Part shown: piece after piece, positions 189 through 63,128 of the stretch
Numbering within the stretch: position 1 is the stretch's first letter
Layout: every line of letters begins with the position of its first letter
Translations under genes and position numbers: made by a program
From: Thiomicrorhabdus cannonii
GTDB taxonomy: Bacteria; Pseudomonadota; Gammaproteobacteria; Thiomicrospirales; Thiomicrospiraceae
Assembly: GCF_013391695.1 (NCBI RefSeq)
Contig: NZ_JACBGH010000005.1
Span: forward strand, 1 to 64,000
Direction: 5' to 3'
Length of the DNA: 64,000 nt
Notes under the pieces: generated by a model
Databases searched by the model: none
Told to the model about the DNA's origin: nothing
Seen by the model: the letters and a program-made list of their open reading frames with translations, nothing else

Positions 189-200
189 AACAGGCCGGGT
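189..200 (+). repeat. Uptake-sequence-like 12-mer, copy 1
   Basis: Exact AACAGGCCGGGT, preceded by AAAATCTC. It lies between the IS end and the 3' end of phnA, in non-coding DNA. It is unpaired. Confidence 0.85.
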
Positions 201-6056: not shown

Positions 6057-7883
6057 TCAGTAGGTTCGTGCTGTGGGCGCAAAAGCGGCGTGATGTTTGG
6101 GGTGGAGGTTGACGGGTTTGTAATCCAAGCGATGTCCGGCGCTGAAATACAGGGTATGTCTGAGCCAGGCCGAATCATCGCGCTGCGGGTAATCGACACG
6201 GCTGTGGGCGCCGCGGCTTTCTGTGCGGTTGAGCGCGCTGTGCACCGTGGCAAAGGCGACGGCCAGCAGGTTCTCGAGCTCGTAAGCCGCCAATCTCTGC
6301 AGATTGAAAACCTGACTGTGGTCACTTAATGTGACTTGCTCAAGGCGCTGCTGCAACAGCAACAGTTGCTGCAAAGCGTGCTGCATGCTTGCCTGATTGC
6401 GGAACACGCCGCAGCCCATCTCCATGGTGTGTTGCAGCGCCTTGCGGATGGCAGCAAGTGTATCCGTGGAAGGGGCGGGATTTTGCCAGCGCGCAATGCG
6501 CTGTCTGACCGCATCCAGGCAGAGTGCGGTTTCCGGTGACCCGGCCTGTTGAGTTTTTTCGCGGCGATTTTGGTGCAGTTCGTGGCTGATGGTTTTAGCC
6601 GCTTCGCGCCCGAAAACCACAATATCCAGCAGCGAATTGCCCCCCAAACGATTCGCGCCGTGCACCGAGACACAGGCGCATTCGCCCACCGCGTAGAGCC
6701 CTTTGACAATCTGCTGCTCGCCATTTTCGTCGGGGGTCACGACGCGGCCGTGAATATCGGTCGGGATACCGCCCATCATATAGTGGCAGGTCGGAAAGAC
6801 CGGCATGGGTTCAACCGCGGGGTCAACGCCCAGAAACGTCAGGCTGATGTCGCGTATGCCGGGCAGGCGCTGTTTGATGGTGGCGTCATCCAGATGGGTC
6901 AGGTCGAGCAGCACATAATCTTTGTTGGGGCCGCAACCGCGACCTTCCTTGACTTCGATGGCGATGGCGCGCGCTACCACATCGCGCGAGGCGAGGTCTT
7001 TGGCGTGCGGCGCGTAGCGTTGCATAAAATCTTCGCCAAGGCTGTTTTTAAGCACGCCGCCTTCACCGCGTACCGCTTCGGAGATCAACATGCCTTTGCC
7101 GGCCACGCCGGTAGGGTGGAATTGCCAGAATTCCATATCTTGCAGCGGCAGGCCGGCACGCAACACCATGCCCAGACCGTCGCCGGTATTGATGCTGGCA
7201 TTGGTGTTGTTGCGGAAAACCTGTCCGGCGCCGCCGGTGGCAATCAAAATATGACGGCTTTGCAAAACGTGATAACGGCCGTCATGGATATTCATGACCA
7301 TCAAACCGCCGATGTTGCCGTGCGTGTCTTTTAGCAGATCCAACGCATAGTATTCGTCAAAAAAACGCGTGCCGGCGTGCAGGTTCTGCTGGTAGAGCGA
7401 ATGCAGAATGGCGTGCCCGGTACGGTCGGCGGCCGCGCAGGTGCGATGCGCCTGCTCCTGACCAAAATTGAGGTTCTGTCCGCCAAAGGCGCGCTGGTAG
7501 ATTTTGCCGTTTTCCAGACGGGAGAAGGGCACGCCGAAATGTTCGAGTTCGCGCACAATGTCGGCGGCTTCGCGGCACATGAACTCGATGGCGTCCTGAT
7601 CTCCGAGGAAATCGCTGCCCTTGATGGTGTCGTACATGTGCCATTCCCAGTTGTCTTCGGTGATATTACCGAGTGCGGCATTGATGCCGCCCTGCGCCGC
7701 TACGGTATGCGAGCGGGTGGGAAAGACCTTGGACACCACGGCGACCTGATGGCCGGCCAGGGTTAAAGCCAGTGCACTGCGCAAGCCCGCACCGCCGCCG
7801 CCCAGTATCAGGGCATCGAACGTATGGGTGTCCAGTTTCAGGTCGGTCAATGGAGAGGCGTGTTTCATAGCAGTATCCATCAT
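6057..7883 (-). CDS. sdhA: Succinate dehydrogenase flavoprotein subunit
   Basis: About 608 residues. It has the FAD-binding ALILGGGGAGLRSALAL at the N-terminus, the covalent flavin region RSHTVAAQGGINAAL with its histidine, and the active-site region GANRLGGNSLLD. It oxidises succinate to fumarate. The start is ambiguous: a 15-bp tandem duplication at the sdhD-sdhA junction creates in-frame ATGs at 7883, 7880 and 7868. The 7868 start (MKHASPL) may be the ancestral one. Codons near residue 443 contain an exact uptake-like motif encoding KTQQAG, in the loop after the active-site domain. Confidence 0.96.
   Translation of the reverse strand: MMDTAMKHASPLTDLKLDTHTFDALILGGGGAGLRSALALTLAGHQVAVVSKVFPTRSHTVAAQGGINAALGNITEDNWEWHMYDTIKGSDFLGDQDAIEFMCREAADIVRELEHFGVPFSRLENGKIYQRAFGGQNLNFGQEQAHRTCAAADRTGHAILHSLYQQNLHAGTRFFDEYYALDLLKDTHGNIGGLMVMNIHDGRYHVLQSRHILIATGGAGQVFRNNTNASINTGDGLGMVLRAGLPLQDMEFWQFHPTGVAGKGMLISEAVRGEGGVLKNSLGEDFMQRYAPHAKDLASRDVVARAIAIEVKEGRGCGPNKDYVLLDLTHLDDATIKQRLPGIRDISLTFLGVDPAVEPMPVFPTCHYMMGGIPTDIHGRVVTPDENGEQQIVKGLYAVGECACVSVHGANRLGGNSLLDIVVFGREAAKTISHELHQNRREKTQQAGSPETALCLDAVRQRIARWQNPAPSTDTLAAIRKALQHTMEMGCGVFRNQASMQHALQQLLLLQQRLEQVTLSDHSQVFNLQRLAAYELENLLAVAFATVHSALNRTESRGAHSRVDYPQRDDSAWLRHTLYFSAGHRLDYKPVNLHPKHHAAFAPTARTY
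6539..6550 (-). repeat. Uptake-sequence-like 12-mer inside sdhA
   Basis: An exact copy on the sense strand of sdhA, extended as AAAAAACTCAACAGGCCGGG, encoding K-T-Q-Q-A-G. Confidence 0.85.
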
Positions 7884-13197: not shown

Positions 13198-13245
13198 TCT
13201 CAACAGGCCGGGTCAGAAGAACTTTTTACCCGGCCTGTTGAGTTT
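13198..13245 (+). terminator. Terminator after dnaE built from an inverted pair of the 12-mer motif
   Basis: AACAGGCCGGGT at 13202-13213 and its reverse complement at 13228-13239 form a 15-bp stem, CTCAACAGGCCGGGT with ACCCGGCCTGTTGAG, around a 14-nt loop, followed by TTTTT. It lies between convergent dnaE and thpR, so it can serve both. Confidence 0.88.
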
Positions 13246-18292: not shown

Positions 18293-18321
18293 CTGAACAG
18301 GCCGGGTTGCGGTCTGTTCAG
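18293..18321 (+). repeat. Motif copy forming a hairpin after actP
   Basis: Exact AACAGGCCGGGT at 18296-18307 within CTGAACAGGCC, pairing with GGTCTGTTCAG through one G-U. The second arm is a decayed motif copy. No T tract follows directly. Confidence 0.8.
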
Positions 18322-18332
18322 CAAATGAAAAG

Positions 18333-18358
18333 AAAGGGCTTTTAAGCCCTTTTTTTAT
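18333..18358 (+). terminator. Terminator after actP
   Basis: AAAGGGCT, loop TTTA, AGCCCT and seven T. Confidence 0.9.
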
Positions 18359-20980: not shown

Positions 20981-20992
20981 ACCCGGCCTGTT
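20981..20992 (-). repeat. Uptake-sequence-like 12-mer after the exonuclease gene
   Basis: An exact copy in the minus orientation, extended to AAACTGAACAGGCCGGGT. GAAGGCCG just upstream could pair weakly with it as a decayed partner. Confidence 0.85.
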
Positions 20993-25991: not shown

Positions 25992-26026
25992 CTCAACAGG
26001 CCGGGTGTTAAGCCCGGGCTGTTGAG
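25992..26026 (+). repeat. Motif copy with decayed inverted partner after infB
   Basis: Exact AACAGGCCGGGT at 25995-26006 within CTCAACAGGCCGGG, pairing with CCCGGGCTGTTGAG at 26013-26026 with one mismatch. No T tract follows. Confidence 0.8.
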
Positions 26027-26038
26027 ATCAAGAATGTC

Positions 26039-26062
26039 AAAATGCTCCGTTTGGGGCATTTT
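26039..26062 (+). terminator. Terminator-like hairpin between infB and rbfA
   Basis: AAAATGCTCC, loop GTTT, GGGGCATTTT. The tract is short, so read-through into rbfA is likely. Confidence 0.6.
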
Positions 26063-27445: not shown

Positions 27446-28281
27446 TGTTGTTGTCAAAAGCCGACGGTATTTTGGATTTGCGCACCTGGGAGGATTACAA
27501 AGCGGCGCATATCGTCGATTCCACCTGGATGCCGTGGGATGAGTTGGGCGAAGCCTTGAATGAATTGCCCGCTGCGCCAGCTACATTCTTTCTGGTGGGC
27601 GCGTTTGAGGCGATTGAGCTGAGTTCGGTCTTGCTGGATGCCAAGGGCTATAAAGTCAGCGGTTCTTTGATTGTGAACCAGCAAGAAGATCTGCAAGCCT
27701 GGGGCGCCAAGCTACCCGGCCTGTTGACTTCCGGAAACGACTCGAAACGCCTTTGGTCGCCCAATCCTCTATTGCAGGAGTTTGTGGCTAAGCATCCCGT
27801 TGATGCGTTTGCGCAACGCCCGCAGGCGCTGGATTTGGGCTGCGGCGGCGGCCGCGATGCGGTGTTTCTGGCCAAGGCGGGCTGGCAGGTTATTGGCATT
27901 GACGATCAGGCGCGTGTGCTGAAACGCGCCAAGCAGCTGGCGCAACGCAATGGTGCATCGGTCAAGTTCAAGTGTTGCGACCTCAAAAAAGCCGGCTGTC
28001 TGCCGCAAGGGACGTTTGATCTGGTGATGATGGTGCGATTTTTGAACCGCGAATTGTTCGCTGCGCTTCGAGAGTTGGTGGCGCCGGGCGGCTTCGTCAT
28101 GGTGCATACCTTTGCCGAAGGGGCGGACGCGTTCGGATCGCCCAAAAATCCCGAACACCTGCTGAAAGCCGCAGAGTTGGCGGAAGTTTTTGCGGATTTC
28201 AGCGTGATTGTTGATAAAATAGACACACTGGCTGACGGGCGTCCCGTGGCTTCTTTTATTGCACAGAAGCCCGCCGAATAA
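27445..28281 (+). CDS. Rhodanese-like plus SAM methyltransferase fusion
   Basis: 278 residues. The first 95 resemble a rhodanese domain (DLRTWEDYKAAHIVDSTWMPW), but the position of the catalytic cysteine appears to be Val in FFLVGAF, so it is probably inactive. Residues about 125-275 are a class I methyltransferase with motif I ALDLGCGGGRDAVFLAKAG, similar to TehB-like proteins. The substrate is unknown. It is translationally coupled to truB and inserted in the otherwise conserved truB-rpsO interval. A motif copy in reverse orientation encodes PGLL between the two domains. Confidence 0.75.
   Translation: MLLSKADGILDLRTWEDYKAAHIVDSTWMPWDELGEALNELPAAPATFFLVGAFEAIELSSVLLDAKGYKVSGSLIVNQQEDLQAWGAKLPGLLTSGNDSKRLWSPNPLLQEFVAKHPVDAFAQRPQALDLGCGGGRDAVFLAKAGWQVIGIDDQARVLKRAKQLAQRNGASVKFKCCDLKKAGCLPQGTFDLVMMVRFLNRELFAALRELVAPGGFVMVHTFAEGADAFGSPKNPEHLLKAAELAEVFADFSVIVDKIDTLADGRPVASFIAQKPAE
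27714..27725 (-). repeat. Uptake-sequence-like 12-mer inside the rhodanese-methyltransferase gene
   Basis: An exact copy, antisense to the gene, placed in the linker between the two domains and encoding P-G-L-L. Confidence 0.85.
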
Positions 28282-34702: not shown

Positions 34703-35893
34703 ATGACTTCAAAAAAAACTGAACAGGCCGGGTCTTGGGATATCTTCTGCCGCGTGGTCGATAATTTCGGCGATGCCGGGGTGACCTGGCGTTTGGCCAG
34801 GCTGCTGGTGCAAAAACAAGGCCTGCATGTGCGTTTATGGATTGATGATCTGGCCGCCCTGCAAACACTGGTGCCCGAATTGGATTTGGCCTCTGCCAAA
34901 CAGTCTTTGGAAGCCGGACGTTTAGAGGTACTTGTGTGGTGCGACGATTTGACCTCCGTGGATTTTGAACCGTTGCCGCAGGTGGTGATTGAAGCCTTTG
35001 GCTGCGATTTGCCACAAGCCTATCTGCAGATGATGCAGACACAACTGCAGCGCGCCAAGCTGCAAGTCAAGCAGGCTGCCGATGCCGTCAAACCGACCTT
35101 CTGGATTAATCTGGAATATCTTTCGGCCGAGTCCTGGGTGGTGGGATGTCACGGTTTGGGCTCGTTGCAATCCAATGGCTTGACGCGTCATTTCTTTTTT
35201 CCGGGATTGGTCGAAGGCACCGGCGGTTTGATGTTGGAGTCCGATTATGAAGACCGTCGTCAGGCTTTTCAAAATATTGAAATTCAGCAGGCCTGGTGTC
35301 GCCAATGGCGGCTACCGTGGGCGGACAGCAACACGCTGAAGGTGTCGCTGTTTGCCTATGAAAACCCCGCTTTACCGAGTTTGATTGAACAATGGCAACA
35401 ACTCAACAGGCCGGTATTGGCCTATCTGCCGGAAGGCAAATTGCTGGCGGAATTCAATCGGCAAAGCAGTCTGAATTTACAAGCTGGCGAATCCTGGCAG
35501 CAAGAGAATGTGACCCTAGTGGTCATGCCGTTTCTGCCGCAAAGCGCCTATGACGAGCTGTTGTGGTTATGCGATGTGAATTTTGTACGCGGCGAGGAGT
35601 CTTTCGTTCGCGCCCAATGGGCGGGCAAGCCGTTTGTGTGGCATATTTATCCGACCGAGGATGCGGCGCATTGGGATAAACTCGAAGCCTTTCTGGAAGT
35701 TTACCAGCCGCCGGAATCCTTAAAAGCGCTGATGATTCAATGGAATAGCGGAAAGTTGCAGACGGATGTGTGGCACAAGGTCATGTCCGATCGCGTTGCA
35801 TTGGAGTGGCATGCAGACGCCTGGCGCCAGCATTTAAAAAATTTAGGCGAATTAAGCACAAATTTAGTTCGTTTTGTTAAAAAAACACTATAA
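34703..35893 (+). CDS. earP: Elongation factor P arginine rhamnosyltransferase EarP
   Basis: 396 residues matching EarP (formerly DUF2331). Near the start is WDIFCRVVDNFGDAGVTWRLARLL and later VRGEESFVRAQWAGKPFVWHIYPTED, the nucleotide-sugar site. It transfers rhamnose from dTDP-rhamnose to Arg32 of EF-P, and efp is directly downstream with Arg at 32. The start is at 34703 (MTSKKTEQAG). The residues KKTEQAG are encoded by an exact motif copy right after the start codon, and a second partial copy lies at 35405. The dTDP-rhamnose genes are not in the window. Confidence 0.93.
   Translation: MTSKKTEQAGSWDIFCRVVDNFGDAGVTWRLARLLVQKQGLHVRLWIDDLAALQTLVPELDLASAKQSLEAGRLEVLVWCDDLTSVDFEPLPQVVIEAFGCDLPQAYLQMMQTQLQRAKLQVKQAADAVKPTFWINLEYLSAESWVVGCHGLGSLQSNGLTRHFFFPGLVEGTGGLMLESDYEDRRQAFQNIEIQQAWCRQWRLPWADSNTLKVSLFAYENPALPSLIEQWQQLNRPVLAYLPEGKLLAEFNRQSSLNLQAGESWQQENVTLVVMPFLPQSAYDELLWLCDVNFVRGEESFVRAQWAGKPFVWHIYPTEDAAHWDKLEAFLEVYQPPESLKALMIQWNSGKLQTDVWHKVMSDRVALEWHADAWRQHLKNLGELSTNLVRFVKKTL
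34722..34733 (+). repeat. Uptake-sequence-like 12-mer at the 5' end of earP
   Basis: An exact copy extended as AAAAAACTGAACAGGCCGGG, encoding K-T-E-Q-A-G at residues 5-10, before the conserved fold begins. Confidence 0.85.
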
Positions 35894-36719: not shown

Positions 36720-37376
36720 ATGCCGTTATTGAAGGTGCCGCGATACCGCCTGTTTTTGATGCTCACCTTTGTCCTCGTATGGATTTGGGCTGCTATTGAT
36801 CCTGTCTACCCGGATGACTGGCTGCTGGAGAATTACCTGATCTTTCTCTTTGTACCGATTATTTTGCTCATCAGCCGCGCCTTCCGCCTGTCGGATCTTT
36901 CCTATACCTTGATTACGCTGTTCCTGTGTATGCACGTGATCGGTTCGCATTACACCTATTCGGAGGTGCCGTTCGGTTTTACCTTGCAGGCGTGGTTCGG
37001 ATCAGATCGCAATATGTATGACCGCTTGGTGCACTTTGGCTTCGGGCTTTTGCTTGCCTATCCTATCCGCGAAGCATTTTATCGTGTGGCGGATGCTCGC
37101 AGTTATTGGGGGGATGCGTTTCCTGCGGTGATGGTGATGGCGTGTTCGGCCTCGTATGAAATTCTGGAATGGCTGACTGCGACGAATGTGGATCCGTCCG
37201 CCGGGCTGGCTTTTCTGGGCGCGCAGGGCGATGTGTGGGATGGTCAAAAAGATATGTTTTTGGCGGGGTTAGGTGCCGTTCTAGCCATGTTGGTCGTGGT
37301 GCTGATGCGTTGGATGAAAGAGCTGAGTATTCGGCATGGCTGGCGTAAGCACGGCAATCAAAGCGATAAAGTGTAG
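36720..37376 (+). CDS. DUF2238 inner-membrane protein (YjdF-like)
   Basis: 218 residues with about six hydrophobic helices. Conserved family features include MHVIGSHYTYSEVPFG, MYDRLVHFGFGLLLAYPIRE, ASYEILEWL and GDVWDGQKDM. It belongs to DUF2238/YjdF, a widespread membrane family of unknown function. The conserved acidic and histidine residues suggest a membrane-embedded site, perhaps for metal, but this is speculation. It stands alone and is convergent with the roxA-like gene, sharing a hairpin terminator. Confidence 0.8.
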   Translation: MPLLKVPRYRLFLMLTFVLVWIWAAIDPVYPDDWLLENYLIFLFVPIILLISRAFRLSDLSYTLITLFLCMHVIGSHYTYSEVPFGFTLQAWFGSDRNMYDRLVHFGFGLLLAYPIREAFYRVADARSYWGDAFPAVMVMACSASYEILEWLTATNVDPSAGLAFLGAQGDVWDGQKDMFLAGLGAVLAMLVVVLMRWMKELSIRHGWRKHGNQSDKV

Positions 37377-37403
37377 CGTGCGCAATGCATAAGCCCAAGA
37401 GAT

Positions 37404-37436
37404 AAAAAACTGACCCGGCCTGGTCAGTTTTTTATT
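37404..37436 (+). terminator. Bidirectional terminator carrying a variant motif
   Basis: AAAAAACTGACC, CGGCCT, GGTCAGTTTTTT. The sequence ACCCGGCCTGGT is an 11 of 12 match to the motif in minus orientation, altered so that one copy folds on itself. Confidence 0.85.
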
Positions 37437-38693: not shown

Positions 38694-38721
38694 AAAAACC
38701 CACCAGGCCTGGTGGGTTTTT
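38694..38721 (-). terminator. Palindromic terminator after purB
   Basis: AAAAACCCACCAGG and CCTGGTGGGTTTTT form a perfect palindrome with A/T runs. Confidence 0.88.
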
Positions 38722-40408: not shown

Positions 40409-42982
40409 ATGTTAGAAGCCTATCGTAACCACGTTGCCGAGCGTGCTGCTGAAGGGATTCCACCTTTACCACTCAATGCAGAACAGACCGCGCAATTGGT
40501 TGAACTGATCAAAAACCCACCGGCGGGCGAAGAGGCGTTTGTTTTGGATTTGTTGAGCAACCGCGTACCGCCTGGGGTCGACGAGGCTTCTTACGTTAAA
40601 GCGAGTTTTTTGGCGGATGTGGCCAAAGAGAGCATCGAGGTGGCGTTGATTGCACCGGAACAGGCGACTTTCCTGTTGGGCACCATGCTGGGTGGTTACA
40701 ACGTCCAGCCGTTGATCGACCTGCTCGACAGCAGCAATGCGGCCGTCGCCGAAGCGGCGGTTGAAGCGCTGTCAAAAACCCTGCTGGTTTACGATAACTA
40801 CCATGATGTGGCAGACAAAGCCAAAACCAATGCTTATGCGCAAAAGGTCATGCAATCGTGGGCAAACGCCGAGTGGTTCCTGAACAAGCCGGCTATGCCT
40901 GAAAGCATTACCGTTACAGTTTTTAAAGTAGATGGCGAAACCAACACCGACGATCTGTCTCCAGCCACAGCGGCCTGGTCGCGTCCGGATATTCCATTGC
41001 ACGCCAAGGAGATGCTGGCAGCACGTATGGATGATGTGCAAGGCACGATTGAACAGTTGAAAGCCAAGGGCCATCCGGTTGCTTATGTGGGCGACGTGGT
41101 CGGTACCGGTTCTTCGCGTAAATCGGCGATGAACTCGGTCATGTGGTTCTTCGGGGATGACATTCCGTTTGTGCCGAACAAGCGCCAGGGCGGTGTGGTA
41201 CTGGGCGGCAAGATCGCGCCAATCTTCTTTAACACGGCAGAAGACTCCGGTTCTTTGCCGATCGAATGTGATGTGTCTGCGATGAATATGGGGGACGTGA
41301 TTACCATTCACCCCTACGCCGGTAAGATTACCAATGCCGCGGGCGAAACCATTTCTACGTTTGAATTGGCGCCGGACACCATGCCGGACGAAGTGCGCGC
41401 CGGCGGGCGTGTGCCGTTGATTATCGGCCGCGGTTTGACCGACAAGGCGCGTAAATCCCTGGGGATGGAACCGTCCGATGTCTTTATCCGTCCGCAGGAC
41501 AAGTCGCAGGCGGATCACGGTTATACCTTGGCGCAGAAGATGGTCGGCAAGGCGTGTGGCATTGAAGGCGTGCGCCCTGGCATGTATTGCGAACCGCACA
41601 TGACGACGGTCGGTTCTCAGGACACCACCGGCGCGATGACGCGCGATGAGATGAAGGAACTGGCCTGTCTGGGCTTCTCTGCCGATCTGGTGATGCAGTC
41701 TTTCTGCCATACGGCGGCTTATCCAAAACCAGTTGATATTAAACTGCAACACTCGCTGCCGGAGTTTATGACGAGCCGTGGCGGTGTGGCGTTGCGTCCG
41801 GGTGACGGGGTTATCCACTCCTGGTTGAACCGCCTGTTGTTGCCGGACACGGTGGGGACCGGCGGTGACTCGCACACGCGTTTCCCGATTGGTATTTCCT
41901 TCCCTGCGGGTTCGGGTCTGGTGGCGTTTGCGGCGACCTTGGGCGTGATGCCGTTGAATATGCCGGAGTCGGTATTGGTGCGCTTTAAAGGCAAAATGCA
42001 ACCGGGCATCACACTGCGTGATCTGGTGAATGCGATTCCTTACGCGGCGATTCAGAAAGGGCTGTTGACGGTCGAGAAGAAAGGCAAGAAAAACGTTTTT
42101 AACGGCCGCGTGTTGGAAATCGAAGGTCTGGAGCATTTGAAAGTTGAGCAAGCGTTTGAATTGTCGGATGCGTCTGCGGAACGTTCCGCCAACGGTTGTG
42201 TGGTCAAATTGGGCAAAGAGCCGATTATCGAATACCTGAAGTCGAACATGGCGTTGATCGACTGGATGGTGGAGAACGGTTATCAGGATGCACGTACACT
42301 GTTGCGCCGCCGAGACGAGATGCAGAAGTGGATCGATAATCCACAACTGCTCGAAGCGGATGCGGACGCCCAGTATGCTGAAGTGATTGAAATCGATCTG
42401 GCGGACATCAAAGAGCCGATTGTGGCCTGCCCGAACGATCCGGATGACGTCAAACTGTTGTCGGAGGTCGCCGGCGACAAGATCGATGAGGTCTTTATCG
42501 GCTCATGTATGACCAACATCGGTCACTACCGCGCCGCCGGCAAGGTCATGGAAGGCATGAGCAATGTGCCGACCCGTCTGTGGATTGCGCCGCCAACTAA
42601 AATGGACGAGCGTCAGTTGATCGAAGAGGGCTATTACAGTATCTTCGGTAAGGTCGGTGCGCGTACCGAGATGCCAGGCTGTTCATTGTGCATGGGTAAC
42701 CAGGCGCGTGTGGCGGACGGCGCCACGGTGTTCTCGACCTCAACGCGTAACTTCCCGAACCGTTTGGGTAACGGCGCTAACGTGTATCTGGGTTCTGCCG
42801 AACTGGCGGCGGTGTGTGCTGCGGTCGGCAAGATTCCGACCGTGGCTGAATACATGCAAGCGGTGGCCAAGCTGGATACGATGACCGGTGATGTTTACCG
42901 TTACCTGCAATTCGACGAGATGGCGGATTACGAAGTGGTGTCGCCCAAGAAGTTGTCGGATATCGGTGTGGCCGTTGCCTGA
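40409..42982 (+). CDS. acnB: Aconitate hydratase B
   Basis: 857 residues, the AcnB domain order: N-terminal HEAT-like domain, swivel domain, then the cluster domains. The [4Fe-4S] ligands are in [14 protein letters not shown] and [14 protein letters not shown], with a further Cys in [12 protein letters not shown]. It interconverts citrate and isocitrate in the TCA cycle and may bind its own mRNA as the apo form. It is transcribed divergently from purB across the repeat. Confidence 0.97.
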
Positions 42983-42995
42983 TTAGCGGCCAATT

Positions 42996-43033
42996 AAACT
43001 GAACAGGCCGGGTACCCGGCCTGTTCAGTTTTT
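42996..43033 (+). terminator. Perfect 36-bp palindrome of two opposed motif copies after acnB
   Basis: AAACTGAACAGGCCGGGT is followed immediately by its exact reverse complement, then TT. The 12-mers lie at 43002-43013 and 43014-43025. It is the cleanest motif-pair terminator in the window. Confidence 0.9.
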
Positions 43034-43051: not shown

Positions 43052-43091
43052 AAAGCCCGCTTGAGTTTATGGACTCAAGCGGGCTTTTTTG
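43052..43091 (+). terminator. Second terminator after acnB (bidirectional)
   Basis: AAAGCCCGCTTGAGT, loop TTATGG, ACTCAAGCGGGCTTT and T residues. It lies between convergent acnB and the diguanylate cyclase gene. Confidence 0.9.
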
Positions 43092-46084: not shown

Positions 46085-48037
46085 ATGACCCAACCATCCG
46101 ACAAAAAAATGCTGGTAGACGATGCGGCCGAACCCGGCCTGTTGAGTTTTTCCGACGACGAAAACACGGAAGAAGCCAACTGTGATGCAGATGACAAAGT
46201 CTATGAAGATTTTAATATCGAGGCTTTTCTCAAGCAGTTGACAGAGCGGCCCGGCGTCTATCGTATGCTCAATGCGGCGGGCAAGATTATCTATGTGGGC
46301 AAGGCTAAAAATCTCAAGCGCCGCGTATCCAGTTATTTCAAGAAGTCGCACGACGAAATCAAAACCGCACGTATGGTCAAGCAGGTGGCCGCCATCGAGG
46401 TAACGGTGACCGATACCGAAAGCGAGGCCTTGATTCTTGAGAACACGCTGATCAAACGTCATAAACCCAAATACAACATTCTGTTTCGCGATGACAAGTC
46501 GTATCCGTATATCTATGTTTCGACTGGCAAGGCTTTTCCTTCATTAAGCTATCATCGTGGCGCCAAACGCCGGGTAGGGGAATACTTTGGCCCGTTCCCG
46601 AATGCGGCCGCGGTGCATCAAACCTTGCAGGCACTGCAAAAGATTTTTCCGGTGCGCCAGTGCGCCGAAAGTGTCTTCAACCATCGTTCGCGGCCGTGTC
46701 TGCAATACCAGATCAAACGCTGTTCCGGCCCTTGTGTGGAAGGGCTGGTCACGCAACAGGAATATGCGCAGGATGTGCGTCATACCCTGATGTTTTTGCA
46801 GGGAAAAAGCTTTGATGTGATTGAGGAATTGGGCAAGCAGATGGAGCAGGCCGCCGAGGCCTTGGCGTTTGAGCAGGCCGCCCGCTTGCGCGACAAGATT
46901 TCCGCGCTGCGTGCCGTCCAGAGCCAGCATCTGATTAATCAGCCGGGCAACCGCGATATGGATGTGATTGCGTTGAGTGAAGCGGCGGGGCAGGTTTGCG
47001 TCTGTTTAATGATGTATCGCGGCGGCAATCTGTGGGGCAGCGAACATTTTTACCCCAAACAGCTGGAATTTGCGGAAACCGGAGTTGACCGTGATGCGGT
47101 TTTGAGCGCCTTTATCAGTCAGCATTACGAGGCGCATCCGGTGCCGGCACAGCTATTGGTGCCGGAGAAATTGACGGAGCAGAAAGTGCTAGAGGCGTGG
47201 CTGAGCGAGAAACGCGGTCAAAAAGTCAAGTTACAGTTGCCCGCGCAGCAGACCGCCAAAGGCCTGATGCAGTTGGCTCAAACCAATGCAACCAGCGGTT
47301 TGAAACAGCATTTGAGCCAGAAAGCGTCGCAGTTTGAACGGGTGCGGGCCTTGCAGGAAGCGCTGGCGTTGCCTAAAGCGCCGAATTACATGGAGTGTTT
47401 TGACATCAGCCACACCCAAGGCGCGCAGACGGTGGCCAGTTGTGTGGTGTTTAAAGACGGCGTGCCGAGTAGCCGCGATTACCGCAAATTCAATATCGAA
47501 GGCATTCAGGGCGGCGATGATTATGCAGCCATGCACCAGGCGTTGCAGCGGCGCTATAGCCGTTTGGCCAAAGAGGGCGCGGTGCTGCCCGACCTGATTG
47601 TGGTGGACGGCGGTAAAGGCCAGCTCAATCAGGCGATTGATGTGTTGAAAGGGCTGGAGCTCGAGATGATTCCGCTGGTTTCGGTGGCCAAGGGCGAAGG
47701 GCGCAAAGCGGGGCTGGAAATACTCTACACTCCTTATAATGAGGAGGGTATCGATTTGGAGGCGGATGATGTGGCGCTGCATCTGATTAACCACATCCGC
47801 GACGAAGCGCACCGTTTCGCCATCACCTCGCACCGCGCCAAACGCACCAAATTACAGACCCACTCCGCGCTGGAGGACATCGAGGGGATCGGTCCTAAAA
47901 CGCGCAAGGCCCTGCTGCTGCATTTCGGCGGTCTGGCGGAGGTCAAAAACGCCTCGGTGCAGGAGTTGCGCAAGGTCAAGGGGATCAGTCTGGATAAGGC
48001 GCAGCGCATCTATGACTTTTTTCATGGCGCACTGTGA
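46085..48037 (+). CDS. uvrC: Excinuclease ABC subunit C
   Basis: 650 residues. The GIY-YIG domain (GVYRMLNAAGKIIYVGKAKN) begins near residue 56, then UVR, the RNase H-like endonuclease domain (ECFDISHTQG, LPDLIVVDGGKGQLNQA) and a C-terminal (HhH)2. It makes both incisions in nucleotide excision repair. About 45 acidic residues precede the usual start, and an exact motif copy there encodes EPGLLSF. A later start would shorten this; the ATG at 46085 has a weak ribosome-binding site. It is followed by pgsA. Confidence 0.95.
   Translation: MTQPSDKKMLVDDAAEPGLLSFSDDENTEEANCDADDKVYEDFNIEAFLKQLTERPGVYRMLNAAGKIIYVGKAKNLKRRVSSYFKKSHDEIKTARMVKQVAAIEVTVTDTESEALILENTLIKRHKPKYNILFRDDKSYPYIYVSTGKAFPSLSYHRGAKRRVGEYFGPFPNAAAVHQTLQALQKIFPVRQCAESVFNHRSRPCLQYQIKRCSGPCVEGLVTQQEYAQDVRHTLMFLQGKSFDVIEELGKQMEQAAEALAFEQAARLRDKISALRAVQSQHLINQPGNRDMDVIALSEAAGQVCVCLMMYRGGNLWGSEHFYPKQLEFAETGVDRDAVLSAFISQHYEAHPVPAQLLVPEKLTEQKVLEAWLSEKRGQKVKLQLPAQQTAKGLMQLAQTNATSGLKQHLSQKASQFERVRALQEALALPKAPNYMECFDISHTQGAQTVASCVVFKDGVPSSRDYRKFNIEGIQGGDDYAAMHQALQRRYSRLAKEGAVLPDLIVVDGGKGQLNQAIDVLKGLELEMIPLVSVAKGEGRKAGLEILYTPYNEEGIDLEADDVALHLINHIRDEAHRFAITSHRAKRTKLQTHSALEDIEGIGPKTRKALLLHFGGLAEVKNASVQELRKVKGISLDKAQRIYDFFHGAL
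46132..46143 (-). repeat. Uptake-sequence-like 12-mer in the 5' end of uvrC
   Basis: An exact copy, antisense to the gene, in the non-conserved N-terminal extension, encoding P-G-L-L. Confidence 0.85.
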
Positions 48038-48739: not shown

Positions 48740-48769
48740 ACCCGGCCTGTTGGCTTTTCGGCAGGCCGG
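48740..48769. repeat. Motif copy with a partial inverted partner after pgsA
   Basis: An exact 12-mer (minus orientation) at 48740-48751. CCGGCCTG pairs with CAGGCCGG at 48762-48769, 8 bp, without a T tract. Confidence 0.8.
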
Positions 48770-50542: not shown

Positions 50543-51241
50543 ATGAATAAAGTTATTGACCTGAAAGGGTCTATCCTCTCGCTCACCGTTCTTAAAATTT
50601 ACAGCAATGATATGGACGCGCTCAAAGAGGCGCTCAATAAAAAAGTCTCGCAAGCACCGGATTTTTTTGTGGGAATCCCCGTCGTTCTGGAACCTCAGGT
50701 TGAAAAGCTAGAACCGATGCTGCTGGCGTTGCTGGTGGAGTTTTTGCATCAGAAGGGAATGGTACCGATCGGCATCCGCACGCAGGACGAGGCCATCAAG
50801 GAACAGGCCAAATATGCCGGCCTGGCGATTTTCAACGAAGAAGTAAAGGCCAAGAAGCGCCCGCAGGAGGAATCCAAACCCGCCGCCGCGCAAACTGAAC
50901 AGGCCGGGTTGAAGACGGCGTTGGTGGTGAATCATGCAGTGCGTTCCGGCCAGCAGATTTATGCCAAAGACCGCGATTTGATTGTGCTGGGCTCGGTCAA
51001 TCCGGGTGCGGAAATTATCGCGGACGGTAATGTGCATGTCTACGGCACCATCCGCGGCAAGGTATTTGCCGGTTCGCAGGGTGAAACCGGTGCGCGGATT
51101 TTCGCCCAGAAAATCGACCCCGAACTGGTGTGTATTGCCGGGCTGTATCAGTTGGCGGAAGACATCGCCCCCGCACACAAAAATGGTTTTGTCGAAATCG
51201 CATTATTGAATGACCAACTGCAATTCAAAATGTTAAGCTAA
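50543..51241 (+). CDS. minC: Septum site-determining protein MinC
   Basis: 232 residues. The N-terminal domain (1-100) blocks FtsZ; the C-terminal beta-helix (about 130-232, LIVLGSVNPGAEIIADGNVH) dimerises and binds MinD. The linker (about 108-125, EESKPAAAQTEQAG) includes an exact motif copy. First gene of minCDE. The 245-bp upstream stretch shared with the PAS-GGDEF gene contains a CACCC/GGGTG hairpin near 50465-50480 and presumably the promoter. Confidence 0.95.
   Translation: MNKVIDLKGSILSLTVLKIYSNDMDALKEALNKKVSQAPDFFVGIPVVLEPQVEKLEPMLLALLVEFLHQKGMVPIGIRTQDEAIKEQAKYAGLAIFNEEVKAKKRPQEESKPAAAQTEQAGLKTALVVNHAVRSGQQIYAKDRDLIVLGSVNPGAEIIADGNVHVYGTIRGKVFAGSQGETGARIFAQKIDPELVCIAGLYQLAEDIAPAHKNGFVEIALLNDQLQFKMLS
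50898..50909 (+). repeat. Uptake-sequence-like 12-mer inside minC
   Basis: An exact copy extended as CAAACTGAACAGGCCGGGT, encoding T-E-Q-A-G in the interdomain linker. Confidence 0.85.
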
Positions 51242-52468: not shown

Positions 52469-53644
52469 TTGGCTGTCGGCCGCTCCATTTGCATAAGGGG
52501 AGTGCGTCAGGCATTCCGCGTAATAGCGCCTAATCATGTGTTCTTCTTCGCTTAAGAAGTGTTCGATGCCTTCCGGGAAAGGGTTGAATCGCAGCCAATG
52601 TGCCGATTGGGTGATCACCGGTACAAAGCCGCGGGCAATCTTGTGTTCGCCGCCGGCGCCCGGCTCAAACTGTTCCAGTCCATGTTGAATGGCATACTCG
52701 ATGCCCTGGTAGTAACAGGCCTCAAAGTGCAGGAATTTGATCTCCTCCTTGCAGCCCCAATGGCGGCCGTAGAGAACCTGGTCGCTGCGGTACATTAAAG
52801 CGCCGCCCACGCATTCTCCGGCGGCAGTGTCGGCCAATACCAGCAAAACCTGGTCGGGCAGGGCTTGCGCCACCGCCTTGAAAAAGGCGGCATTAAAAGT
52901 GGCCAGACTCATCTTTTCGCTGAAGGTTTTATGGTAAAAATAGGCGAAATTTTCCCAGTCCTCGTCGCTGGCGCTGTGGCCGTCCAGTTGTCTTAATCTT
53001 ATGCCGATTTTGGCAAGATGCGCACGTTCCTGGCGGATGTTCTTGCGTTTTTTGGGGGTGAGCGCCTGTAGAAAATCGTTAAAGTCGCTGTAATGCCGGT
53101 TAAACCAGTGAAAATGGCAGTCGTGGCGCAATAGCATGTCGCTACGCGTCGCCAACCCGGCCTGTTGAGTTTTTTCGGCAAACAAAATGTGCCAGCCGCT
53201 CAGGTTATGTTGCTGCACGAACTGCTGGATTTTTTCGATGCAGAAAGCGGTTAAGGTTGATTTTTGTGGCTCGGATAACTCGGGGGCCAATAAAAAACGC
53301 GGCCCGGTCACAGGACTGTAAGGCACCGCCGTGACCAATTTGGGAAAATAGGGCAAACCAACCTGTTGCCAGGCTTGCGCCCAGCTGTGGTCGAAGACGA
53401 ATTCGCCGTAGGAGTTGGTTTTGATGTATAAGGGAACGGCGGCGACCAGACGTTGGTGTTGATGCACGCTGAGATGACAGGGCAGCCAGCCGTAGCGTTC
53501 GCCCACGCAACCGTGCTGCTCCATCGCGTTGAGAAAGTGGTGGTTTACAAACGGATTGCCGTCAGCGATCAGGCGATTCCATGCATCGGCAGGCAGTTCG
53601 GCCAATCGTTGGTGAAAACGGTATTCAAAAGAGGCATCCGACAC
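52466..53644 (-). CDS. FemAB/GNAT-like protein (DUF482, COG3146)
   Basis: 392 residues with the features of the DUF482 family: NPFVNHHFLNAMEQHGCVG, SPVTGPRFLLAP, LTPKKRKNIRQERAHL, and HWGCKEEIKFLHFEACYYQGIEYAI. These proteins have a tandem GNAT fold related to FemAB and are named peptidogalycan biosynthesis/recognition proteins, but the reaction is not established. A motif copy in the sense direction encodes KTQQAG near residue 161, before ATRSDMLLRHD. It is convergent with minE. Confidence 0.83.
   Translation of the reverse strand: MSDASFEYRFHQRLAELPADAWNRLIADGNPFVNHHFLNAMEQHGCVGERYGWLPCHLSVHQHQRLVAAVPLYIKTNSYGEFVFDHSWAQAWQQVGLPYFPKLVTAVPYSPVTGPRFLLAPELSEPQKSTLTAFCIEKIQQFVQQHNLSGWHILFAEKTQQAGLATRSDMLLRHDCHFHWFNRHYSDFNDFLQALTPKKRKNIRQERAHLAKIGIRLRQLDGHSASDEDWENFAYFYHKTFSEKMSLATFNAAFFKAVAQALPDQVLLVLADTAAGECVGGALMYRSDQVLYGRHWGCKEEIKFLHFEACYYQGIEYAIQHGLEQFEPGAGGEHKIARGFVPVITQSAHWLRFNPFPEGIEHFLSEEEHMIRRYYAECLTHSPYANGAADSQ
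53155..53166 (-). repeat. Uptake-sequence-like 12-mer inside the DUF482 gene
   Basis: An exact copy on the sense strand, extended as AAAAAACTCAACAGGCCGGG, encoding K-T-Q-Q-A-G as in sdhA. Confidence 0.85.
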
Positions 53645-53742: not shown

Positions 53743-53754
53743 AACAGGCCGGGT
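53743..53754 (+). repeat. Uptake-sequence-like 12-mer downstream of the helical protein gene
   Basis: An exact copy, 11 bp beyond the stop of the gene at 53765, in non-coding DNA. Confidence 0.85.
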
Positions 53755-58814: not shown

Positions 58815-59897
58815 ATGCGGATCTGCGTATCTCTGCAACTTGATTTCAGTCTGGCGCCGAAAACCGATGCCCCGGTCTATCTTCATGACCAGGCTGTTCC
58901 TCTAGTCGGTGCGCCGCTCGGGCCTTTTGTGCGCAATGCCAAGGGCGAACTGGTCGGTTTGGATCAAAATGAGGCGTGTATTTCAGCCGATTCAGGCAAA
59001 AGCTGGCGGCGCTATCCGATTTTTCAACAGGCCGGGTTTGAGTGCAGCAATTCGCGTTCATTGCTTTGTCTGCGATCGGGGGTCTTGATTCTGTCGTTTG
59101 CCAATATGGCGCAAAGCCACTTCAATTGGCATCGCAAAACCAATCTGCCGACCAAAAACACCTTTCTGCACCACTGGATCACACGCAGTTTGGATGGCGG
59201 GCGTAGCTGGGAGGCGCCGCAACGGGTGCTGCGCGGTTATGCCGCTGCCATGACCAGCGCAATTCAGTTGCACGACGGCACGGTGCTGCTTTCCAGCCAG
59301 AACCTGGATTATGACAACGGGCGGCATTATGCGTTGACACTGCTGTCCAAGGATGAGGGGCAAACCTGGCAGGCCAGTAACCGCCTGGATATCGGCGGGC
59401 GCGGCCATCACGGCGGGTGTTATGAGGGAACCCTGGCGCAGTTGGCTGATGGCCGGGTTTGGTATTGCATTCGCACCAATCAGGACTGGTTCTGGCATGC
59501 CTATTCGGCGGACAGCGGTTTGACCTGGACGGAAATTCATCCCGGACTGGCCGCCTCGAGTTCGCCGGGGATGCTTACATGCCTCAAATCGGGGCGTTTG
59601 CTGTTGACCTACAATCCGTTGCAATCGCTGCTGGATGAAACACGCAGAGCCGAAAAATTCCGGCGAGGCGGTCTCTTCTCGGAGGTGGCCGCCTCCTGGT
59701 TCAGGGAGGAGCTGGCGATTTGCTATTCGGAAGATGAGGGGCTGAGTTGGTCTTGTCCGGTTGTGATTGCGCAATGCGATAAAGCCTGGCTCAGTTATCC
59801 CTATGTGTGTGAGGTCGAACCCGGCAAGTTATGGATTACCACCATGCAAAGCCAGTTGAAACTGGAGATTGCCGAGAGCGCCATTCTCGGAAAATAA
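58815..59897 (+). CDS. Sialidase-like BNR/Asp-box beta-propeller protein
   Basis: 360 residues with five Asp boxes of the form SxDxGxxW: SADSGKSW, SLDGGRSW, SKDEGQTW, SADSGLTW and SEDEGLSW, so a beta-propeller is likely. It resembles exo-alpha-sialidase-like proteins, but the catalytic Arg triad and Asp/Tyr are not certain and no signal peptide is visible, so the substrate is open. It may share a transcript with hemJ. An exact motif copy encodes FQQAG at residues 71-75, just after the first Asp box. Confidence 0.78.
   Translation: MRICVSLQLDFSLAPKTDAPVYLHDQAVPLVGAPLGPFVRNAKGELVGLDQNEACISADSGKSWRRYPIFQQAGFECSNSRSLLCLRSGVLILSFANMAQSHFNWHRKTNLPTKNTFLHHWITRSLDGGRSWEAPQRVLRGYAAAMTSAIQLHDGTVLLSSQNLDYDNGRHYALTLLSKDEGQTWQASNRLDIGGRGHHGGCYEGTLAQLADGRVWYCIRTNQDWFWHAYSADSGLTWTEIHPGLAASSSPGMLTCLKSGRLLLTYNPLQSLLDETRRAEKFRRGGLFSEVAASWFREELAICYSEDEGLSWSCPVVIAQCDKAWLSYPYVCEVEPGKLWITTMQSQLKLEIAESAILGK
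59026..59037 (+). repeat. Uptake-sequence-like 12-mer inside the sialidase-like gene
   Basis: An exact copy on the sense strand, encoding Q-Q-A-G. Confidence 0.85.
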
Positions 59898-63116: not shown

Positions 63117-63128
63117 ACCCGGCCTGTT
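63117..63128 (-). repeat. Uptake-sequence-like 12-mer after the M14 gene
   Basis: An exact copy in the minus orientation, extended as AAACTCAACAGGCCGGGT. It is unpaired and begins 3 bp beyond the stop codon, between convergent genes. Confidence 0.85.

Follow-up and report, generated by a model that had tools for sequence, protein, structure and literature searches.

We propose that the unit (A-tract)-CTS-AACAGGCCGGGT, which recurs throughout the genome of Thiomicrorhabdus cannonii (G000), is a dispersed recognition signal of the Thiomicrorhabdus/Hydrogenovibrio group, most likely a DNA uptake sequence serving natural transformation, and that pairs of it have been reused as transcription terminators. 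From the sequence comparisons that follow, we give this reading a probability of about 0.58. A pilus-associated receptor would bind word-bearing DNA and lead to its preferential uptake, and recombination after uptake would spread and maintain the word. Copies that lie head-to-head at the 3' end of a gene would combine GC-rich arms with the A/T-tract of the word and so supply an intrinsic terminator ready for use, and in many cases the pair would have been kept for that use. Hairpins in a 64-kb stretch of this genome (64,000 nt, hereafter the window) had been predicted to act as terminators; the uptake reading, if true, accounts for them without termination as their main purpose.

The repeated word and its flanks

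The commonest 12-mer of the window is AACAGGCCGGGT, with 18 exact copies. The 2.49-Mb genome holds 482, with no overall strand bias (242 forward, 240 reverse), and the reversed word used as a control occurs once (0 and 1 on the two strands). The expectation from an order-2 Markov model is ∼0.01 copies per 40 kb of this genome. A short word far above chance on both strands is also what characterizes the DUS and USS of other bacteria. The full unit, derived from 86 copies in 464 kb, reads (A-tract)-C-T-[CG]-AACAGGCCGGGT, with little conservation downstream of its final T, where the next base is A in 42% of the 86 copies. These 86 exact copies compare with 36 for all one-mismatch forms combined in the same 464 kb.

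Pairing and gene context were analysed in 1.2 Mb, 48% of the genome, with genes and gaps assigned approximately by a home-made codon-usage gene caller. This sample contains 242 exact copies, 73 of which (∼30%) lie in genes; 58 belong to head-to-head pairs and 184 lie outside such pairs. Copies in genes keep the flank: A is found at −6 with a frequency of 0.86 and T at −2 with a frequency of 0.90 (29 gene copies). The mean A count over the five tract positions is slightly lower in genes, 3.55 against 3.94 and 4.02 elsewhere, and the CT[CG] flank is likewise kept, slightly less. Again as in DUS and USS, copies occur in both genes and gaps with the flank preserved in each. Among the 73 in-gene copies, 42 are on the gene strand in one and the same reading frame; in the window, 5 of the 18 exact copies are inside genes, in open frames (Table 1). 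On one of four contigs, C2, the copies are spaced more evenly than expected from class-matched chance (0 of 2000); the other three do not show this (C5, 0.067; C3, 0.26; C1, 0.70).

Table 1. Hairpins and exact copies of the word in the window, by position
Feature	Position	Strand	Description
Solitary intergenic exact copy	189..200	+	
Solitary exact copy in gene	6539..6550	-	
dnaE head-to-head pair	13199..13242		copies 13202-13213 (+) and 13228-13239 (-); 15-bp stem, T5 on + strand
actP pair	18293..18321	+	perfect copy 18296-18307 and decayed inverted copy; 12-bp stem, no T-tract
Ordinary hairpin behind actP	18329..18356	+	T run
Solitary intergenic exact copy	20981..20992	-	
infB pair	25992..26026	+	perfect copy 25995-26006 and decayed inverted copy; 14 pairs, one mismatch; no T-tract
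Separate ordinary-looking hairpin behind infB	26039..26062	+	10-bp stem ending TTTT, then CACTTTTT
Solitary exact copy in gene	27714..27725	-	
Solitary intergenic exact copy	34722..34733	+	
Hybrid self-folding copy after DUF2238-type gene	~37401..37436		arms ACCCGG and relatives' CCTGGT; T6 on both strands
Hairpin AAAAACCCACCAGGCCTGGTGGGTTTTT	38694..38721	-	~25 nt behind purB; contains one of the two ACCAGGCCTGGT copies in the genome
acnB palindrome	42996..43031		perfect 36-bp; two abutting inverted word copies, cores 43002-43013 (+) and 43014-43025 (-)
Ordinary intrinsic-terminator-like hairpin of acnB	43052..43087	+	15-bp perfect arms, T6 tail
Solitary exact copy in gene	46132..46143	-	A-tract flank
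Solitary intergenic exact copy	48740..48751	-	
Solitary exact copy in gene	50898..50909	+	
Solitary exact copy in gene	53155..53166	-	A-tract flank
Solitary intergenic exact copy	53743..53754	+	
Solitary intergenic exact copy	59026..59037	+	
Solitary intergenic exact copy	63117..63128	-	

Inverted pairs at the 3' ends of genes

Neighbouring exact copies separated by up to 30 nt are strongly biased in orientation, with 29 +- pairs in the 1.2 Mb against two -+, one -- and no ++ (binomial p ∼8e-15 against equal orientation). Eighteen of the +- pairs lie between convergent genes and 11 between co-directional genes; none is found between divergent genes or in genes. In a count over the 1.2 Mb of inverted pairs and of their distances from stop codons, a check that the original prediction had proposed genome-wide, 26 of the 29 pairs are no more than 79 nt away from the stop codon assigned by a rough gene caller (the exceptions are at 742, 815 and 3295 nt). 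Inverted +- pairs at terminator positions are a feature of DUS and USS as well, and both the +- bias and a tail-to-tail enrichment have been described for uptake sequences in terminators, in the portions of that study drawn on here (PMC1852404).

The arms of these pairs match beyond the word itself. Spacers, which are mostly 10–14 nt long (25 of 29), add 2.07 bp to the stem on average; with shuffled partners the mean is 1.41 bp, and 0 of 2000 shuffles reach the observed value (27 of the 29 pairs, those with spacers of at least 8 nt). In 20 of 26 informative pairs, the two arms have the same C/G letter before the core (p 0.006). An independent terminator is present in 38 of the 51 convergent gaps of at least 40 nt that lack the word, in 14 of the 30 that have a single copy and in 7 of the 17 that have a pair (for pairs, p 0.018; for any copy, p 0.004); the detector accepts loops of 3–9 nt only, misses most pairs, and was applied to independent terminators only. 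Co-directional gaps show no such deficit, the corresponding counts being 88 of 392, 14 of 58 and 6 of 11. Convergent gaps make up 14.5% of the intergenic length of the 1.2 Mb and hold 68 of the 167 classified intergenic copies.

Judging by these patterns, many exact pairs probably terminate transcription, like inverted uptake sequences of Neisseria and Haemophilus. The T-tail of a pair does not count as separate evidence of this, because the A-tract is part of the word, in genes as well. The prediction that head-to-head pairs serve as terminators is therefore upheld in part, by the orientation bias in 1.2 Mb, the 3'-end siting, the extra complementarity of the arms and the smaller number of ordinary terminators in convergent gaps; it is weakened by the ordinary hairpins that acnB, actP and infB have of their own downstream, and by the lack of a T-tract in the actP and infB pairs. 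The series of perfect and decayed partners, from which different ages of pairing had been suggested, was not borne out. Of 111 unpaired gap copies, 8 have an inverted partner matching at 9 of 12 positions on their head side and 11 have one on the opposite side; half-decayed partners are not in excess at the head.

The individual hairpins had been described accurately. Two copies abut behind acnB as a perfect 36-bp palindrome (42996–43031), two copies behind dnaE make a 15-bp stem followed by T5, a perfect copy is paired with a decayed one behind actP (12-bp stem) and infB (14 pairs, one mismatch), and the variant behind the DUF2238-type gene folds on itself (∼37401–37436). The identities of dnaE, actP, infB and acnB were confirmed by name; acnB ends at 42982 (TIGR00117), and the DUF2238-type gene (36720–37376) matches NF007369 below its cut-off. 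The ordinary hairpins after three of the named sites, the 5 of 18 in-gene copies and the hairpin at 38694–38721 are additions to the earlier description.

The acnB palindrome has arms of 18 nt, 100% complementary with no gap, made of two inverted AAACTSAACAGGCCGGGT copies; the unit repeated within it, in two inverted abutting copies, is AAACTGAACAGGCCGGGT. Its predicted RNA fold has −29.5 kcal/mol (z −9.0), and with T5 behind it the gene is followed by a GC hairpin and T-tract, as in an intrinsic terminator. The ordinary hairpin starts 20 nt past the palindrome. When the 160 nt on the 3' side of acnB were inspected by eye in 29 relatives, nearly all had an ordinary hairpin and none had a palindrome of the G000 type; G011 has a ACCAGGCCTGG word in its place and G038 has no clear hairpin. 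As a putative terminator, the acnB palindrome is thus ambiguous. The dnaE pair sits between dnaE (+) and a convergent gene (−) for an RNA 2',3'-cyclic phosphodiesterase, a gap in which no second hairpin was found; this pair is a good candidate for a terminator, and so is the DUF2238 variant. Behind actP and infB, the pairs fold with −21.2 and −27.3 kcal/mol, respectively, and directly after their stems the next letters are CAAATG and ATCAAG instead of a T-tract, and we regard both as poor candidates. We reject termination as the main role of the word on account of the copies in genes, the unpaired copies and the separate ordinary hairpins.

Dialects among relatives and genes of competence

The source lineage, which we take to be one of sulfur oxidisers, was compared with relatives in 62 genomes of the family of the Thiomicrorhabdus/Hydrogenovibrio group; an order-level search gave the same 62. 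NCBI places Thiomicrorhabdus and Hydrogenovibrio in Piscirickettsiaceae, while GTDB has a family Thiomicrospiraceae, and the named records nearest to the AcnB protein are from a MAG (87%), Hydrogenovibrio sp. SC-1 (87%) and a Thiomicrorhabdus MAG (85%). G039, which belongs to the genus of the window, has an acnB locus identical (100%) to that of Thiomicrorhabdus sp. S012_112, and G012, from a different genus of the family, has that of Hydrogenovibrio sp. SC-1. AACAGGCCGGGT is abundant only in G000 (482) and G036 (275) of the 62; G002 has eight copies and the others at most three. In nine genomes found by way of named acnB loci, the count is 0 to 3; three of these loci (L001–L003) match family members. 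Between G000 and its close relative G036, one site only is shared.

Related words are found in other members of the family. The perfect palindrome ACCAGGCCTGGT has 84–718 sites in 27 of the 62 genomes, and its reversed control has 0 in all 62. The 8-mer CAGGCCTG has 236–1173 sites in 32 genomes (reversed control 0–28) and no more than 74 in each of the remaining 30. Samples yielded further palindromic types, AGCAGGCCTGCT in G041, AACAGGCCTGTT in G047 and G023 (clearest in gaps) and ACCGGCCGGT in G026 (12 in 40 kb). G007, G008 and G013 have an asymmetric word, AAAATCTGCCAGG[CT]TGGG, with the full form AAAATCT[GA]CCAGG[CT]TGGG, which has the same architecture as the G000 word and is not palindromic. 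The three share one such site ∼110–125 nt upstream of acnB, where G008 and G013 have T and G007 has C, matching the other G007 copies; the G007 words were located with the G008 consensus, not de novo. These three genomes (L131–L136, L195, L196, L201) are of a Hydrogenovibrio-type genus and are CAGGCCTG-poor. Regular repeats resembling CRISPR arrays are present in L131 (the first ∼10 kb of G007:C1) and at L135:10–196; in G007, these repeats dominate the over-representation statistics.

All these dialects share the centre C[AC]GG-pyrimidine-pyrimidine-[GT]G, and a conserved inner core combined with dialects specific to lineages is also found in DUS and USS. Because the copies of one genome share one variant, a trans-acting reader is suggested. 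When the relatives' sites were mapped on G000 (blastn), one orthologous coding site was found, at which the G000 form is one mismatch from its own word. Two hairpins of the window carry relative-type copies in this AACAGGCCGGGT-using genome, the hybrid ACCCGG/CCTGGT form at 37401–37436 and the ACCAGGCCTGGT copy in 38694–38721; such hybrid and relative-type copies may possibly be relics of a dialect switch. In 40–45-kb samples of G024, G028, G029, G030, G042, G050 and G051, a de novo search detected no such word; low densities escape a search of this kind, and sampling was inadequate for it in 17 of the 30 CAGGCCTG-poor genomes. Neither ACCAGGCCTGGT nor AACAGGCCGGGT occurs in 75 more distant acnB loci (L006–L080, 478 kb, at most 77% identity), where CAGGCCTG has a density of 63 per Mb, higher than in most of the CAGGCCTG-poor relatives and lower than in the rich genomes.

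Of the genes expected for uptake, comEC is present in 56 of the 62 genomes, comprising 31 of the 32 CAGGCCTG-rich ones (the exception is an 82% complete bin) and 25 of the 30 poor ones. PilT-family matches exceed the cut-off in 52 of the 62, and G000 has two adjacent PilT-family genes. Eight of the 32 rich genomes have no PilT-family match over the cut-off, and five of these (G010, G015, G052, G053 and G060), word-rich and near-complete, are at least 99% complete. We reject the presence of comEC or of PilT as a switch for the word, as neither separates rich from poor genomes. A PilM search in the genus of the window, with a weak model, gave only FtsA-sized PilM_2 matches and one cut at a contig edge, and is thus uninformative there. 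G000 has 12 N_methyl matches, 11 of them over the cut-off, and no ComP homologue or sequence-specific receptor was identified. Two clusters of unusually long prepilin-like proteins (∼260–500 aa) lie at G000:C12:14.2–20 kb and G000:C1:439246–443998, several with N_methyl and some with an LPCPD-type motif; they are possible pilus tips and candidate receptors.

A Mu-like prophage of ∼37 kb, with Mu transposase C-terminal and rve domains, occupies G000:C1:51351–88048 (L083–L085) and carries a D12 adenine methylase at 87167–87967. It splits comEC, as a relative's ComEC matches 89826–88075 and then 51351–50566 of this contig. It is therefore probable that the G000 strain cannot be transformed at present. 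Competence genes carrying mobile elements have been described, comEC of Piscirickettsia salmonis among them (PMC12955456, in whose accessible portion the term 'uptake sequence' is absent), so a lineage that was once competent would fit the split, which proves nothing. The prophage contains 0 copies of the word where 7.4 would be expected from the mean density (p 6e-4, post hoc). This is a hint only, because its 41-kb word-free gap, the longest on C1, is yet within the range of random placement (median longest gap 29 kb, 99% 52 kb). Other long word-free stretches of C1 lie at 98–127, 268–294 and 593–632 kb; two are of low GC (46.5 and 47.7%) and one is a flagellar cluster of normal GC with tandem flagellin-like genes.

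Possible roles of the word and known systems

Taken together, the hundreds of copies on the two strands, the genome-wide variants around a common centre, the occurrence within genes as well as between them, the +- pairs with the position and orientation of terminators and the spacing on C2 form the signature of an uptake sequence, as described in the parts of Kingsford 2007 (PMC1852404) and Frye 2013 (PMC3630211) used here. Counting against the uptake reading, most dialects are palindromic, unlike DUS and USS. That property would suit a highly iterated palindrome resembling HIP1, kept by, or marking sites for, a methylase specific for a GGCC-centred word. Most dialects are indeed palindromes centred on GGCC, and in cyanobacteria HIP1 and the alternate HIPs come with matching methylases (parts of PMC4390886). 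Palindromy fails, however, in AACAGGCCGGGT and in AAAATCTGCCAGG[CT]TGGG, that is, in the dialects of G000/G036 and of G007/G008/G013, which have a one-sided A-tract, whereas it holds for the other dialects found, and HIP extensions, as treated in the same parts of PMC4390886, retain the palindrome. Moreover, 22 of the 32 CAGGCCTG-rich genomes, and also G000, lack a C5-cytosine methylase (PF00145, E <= 1e-10); its presence does not track the word, and we reject it as the cause. We consider a HIP1-like origin unlikely.

The word might instead be primarily a terminator arm, belonging to an intrinsic-terminator family amplified in G000, with solitary copies as remnants. Such an origin would explain the enrichment at 3' ends, with two-fifths of the classified intergenic copies (68/167) in so small a share of the intergenic length, the T-tract, the spacers that strengthen the hairpin and the reduced number of ordinary terminators where a convergent gap has a pair. 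It is nevertheless quite improbable, given that 73 of 242 copies are in genes and 184 of 242 are unpaired with nearly the same flank, that 119 of 228 CAGGCCTG/CCGGCCGG sites in eight sampled motif-bearing relatives are in genes, and that acnB, actP and infB have separate ordinary hairpins. A binding site for a chromosome-organising or recombination protein (Chi-like, macrodomain or nucleoid-protein site) would agree with the even spacing on C2 and the dispersal across genes and gaps, but the equal division between strands does not favour it, and presence or absence together with dialects within one genus would be unusual for the site of a conserved protein; we think this very unlikely. Multiple copies and palindromic pairs could also point to a short mobile repeat (REP or MITE-like) or to chance composition. 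The conserved unit is only ∼18–20 nt with little beyond, exact copies outnumber one-mismatch forms, the Markov expectation is minute and copies lie in open frames inside genes, all of which makes this explanation extremely improbable.

We return to the DNA uptake sequence as our preferred reading. Uptake sequences are otherwise known from two bacterial families only, Neisseriaceae and Pasteurellaceae, which are also the two given in the relevant part of a 2026 terminator survey (PMC13020248). A literature search gave no transformation data for the Thiomicrorhabdus/Hydrogenovibrio group among the matches listed, and in open-licence PMC literature there was no prior report of such words in the group among the matches listed, nor any report of the palindromic word or of 'DNA uptake sequence' with Thiomicrospira. 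If the reading is true, a third family with an uptake-sequence system would be new. We see even odds that the group represents such a family, with independently evolved uptake dialects, some palindromic, as for a symmetric dimeric receptor that would read either orientation, and some asymmetric, and with a switch that can be traced within the family. A free-living chemolithotrophic third family with at least six dialects, several of them palindromic, would bear on how specificity arises and switches, on the constraints upon the form of a receptor and on whether terminator reuse is a general consequence of uptake sequences.

Among known systems, intrinsic (Rho-independent) terminators resemble the head-to-head pairs in having a GC hairpin followed by a T-tract at gene ends; they differ in that most copies here are unpaired or in genes, and in that some pairs are followed by an ordinary hairpin and have no T-tract of their own. 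In cyanobacteria, HIP1 and the alternate HIPs are likewise abundant palindromic words, with alternates in relatives and species with and without them, whereas the group studied here has non-palindromic dialects with a one-sided A-tract and no tracking by a C5-cytosine methylase. The DUS of Neisseriaceae is read by the minor pilin ComP. It shares with the present word a length of ∼12 nt, a copy number in the hundreds, with copies on either strand and both within and between genes, a conserved inner core with lineage dialects, and +- terminator pairs whose A-rich end faces outward. The families are unrelated, and the present unit has 18–19 nt with an A-tract, several fully palindromic dialects and a role in uptake that we infer; overlapping dyads are described in S. 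muelleri (in the portion of PMC3630211 used). For the USS of Pasteurellaceae, the receptor ComN/PpdA is predicted only. Like the present word, the USS combines a core with an A/T tract, has hundreds of copies and two sub-types, and forms inverted pairs in terminators; its core is AAGTGCGGT, whereas in the group described here the A-tract lies upstream of the core, 3 nt away.
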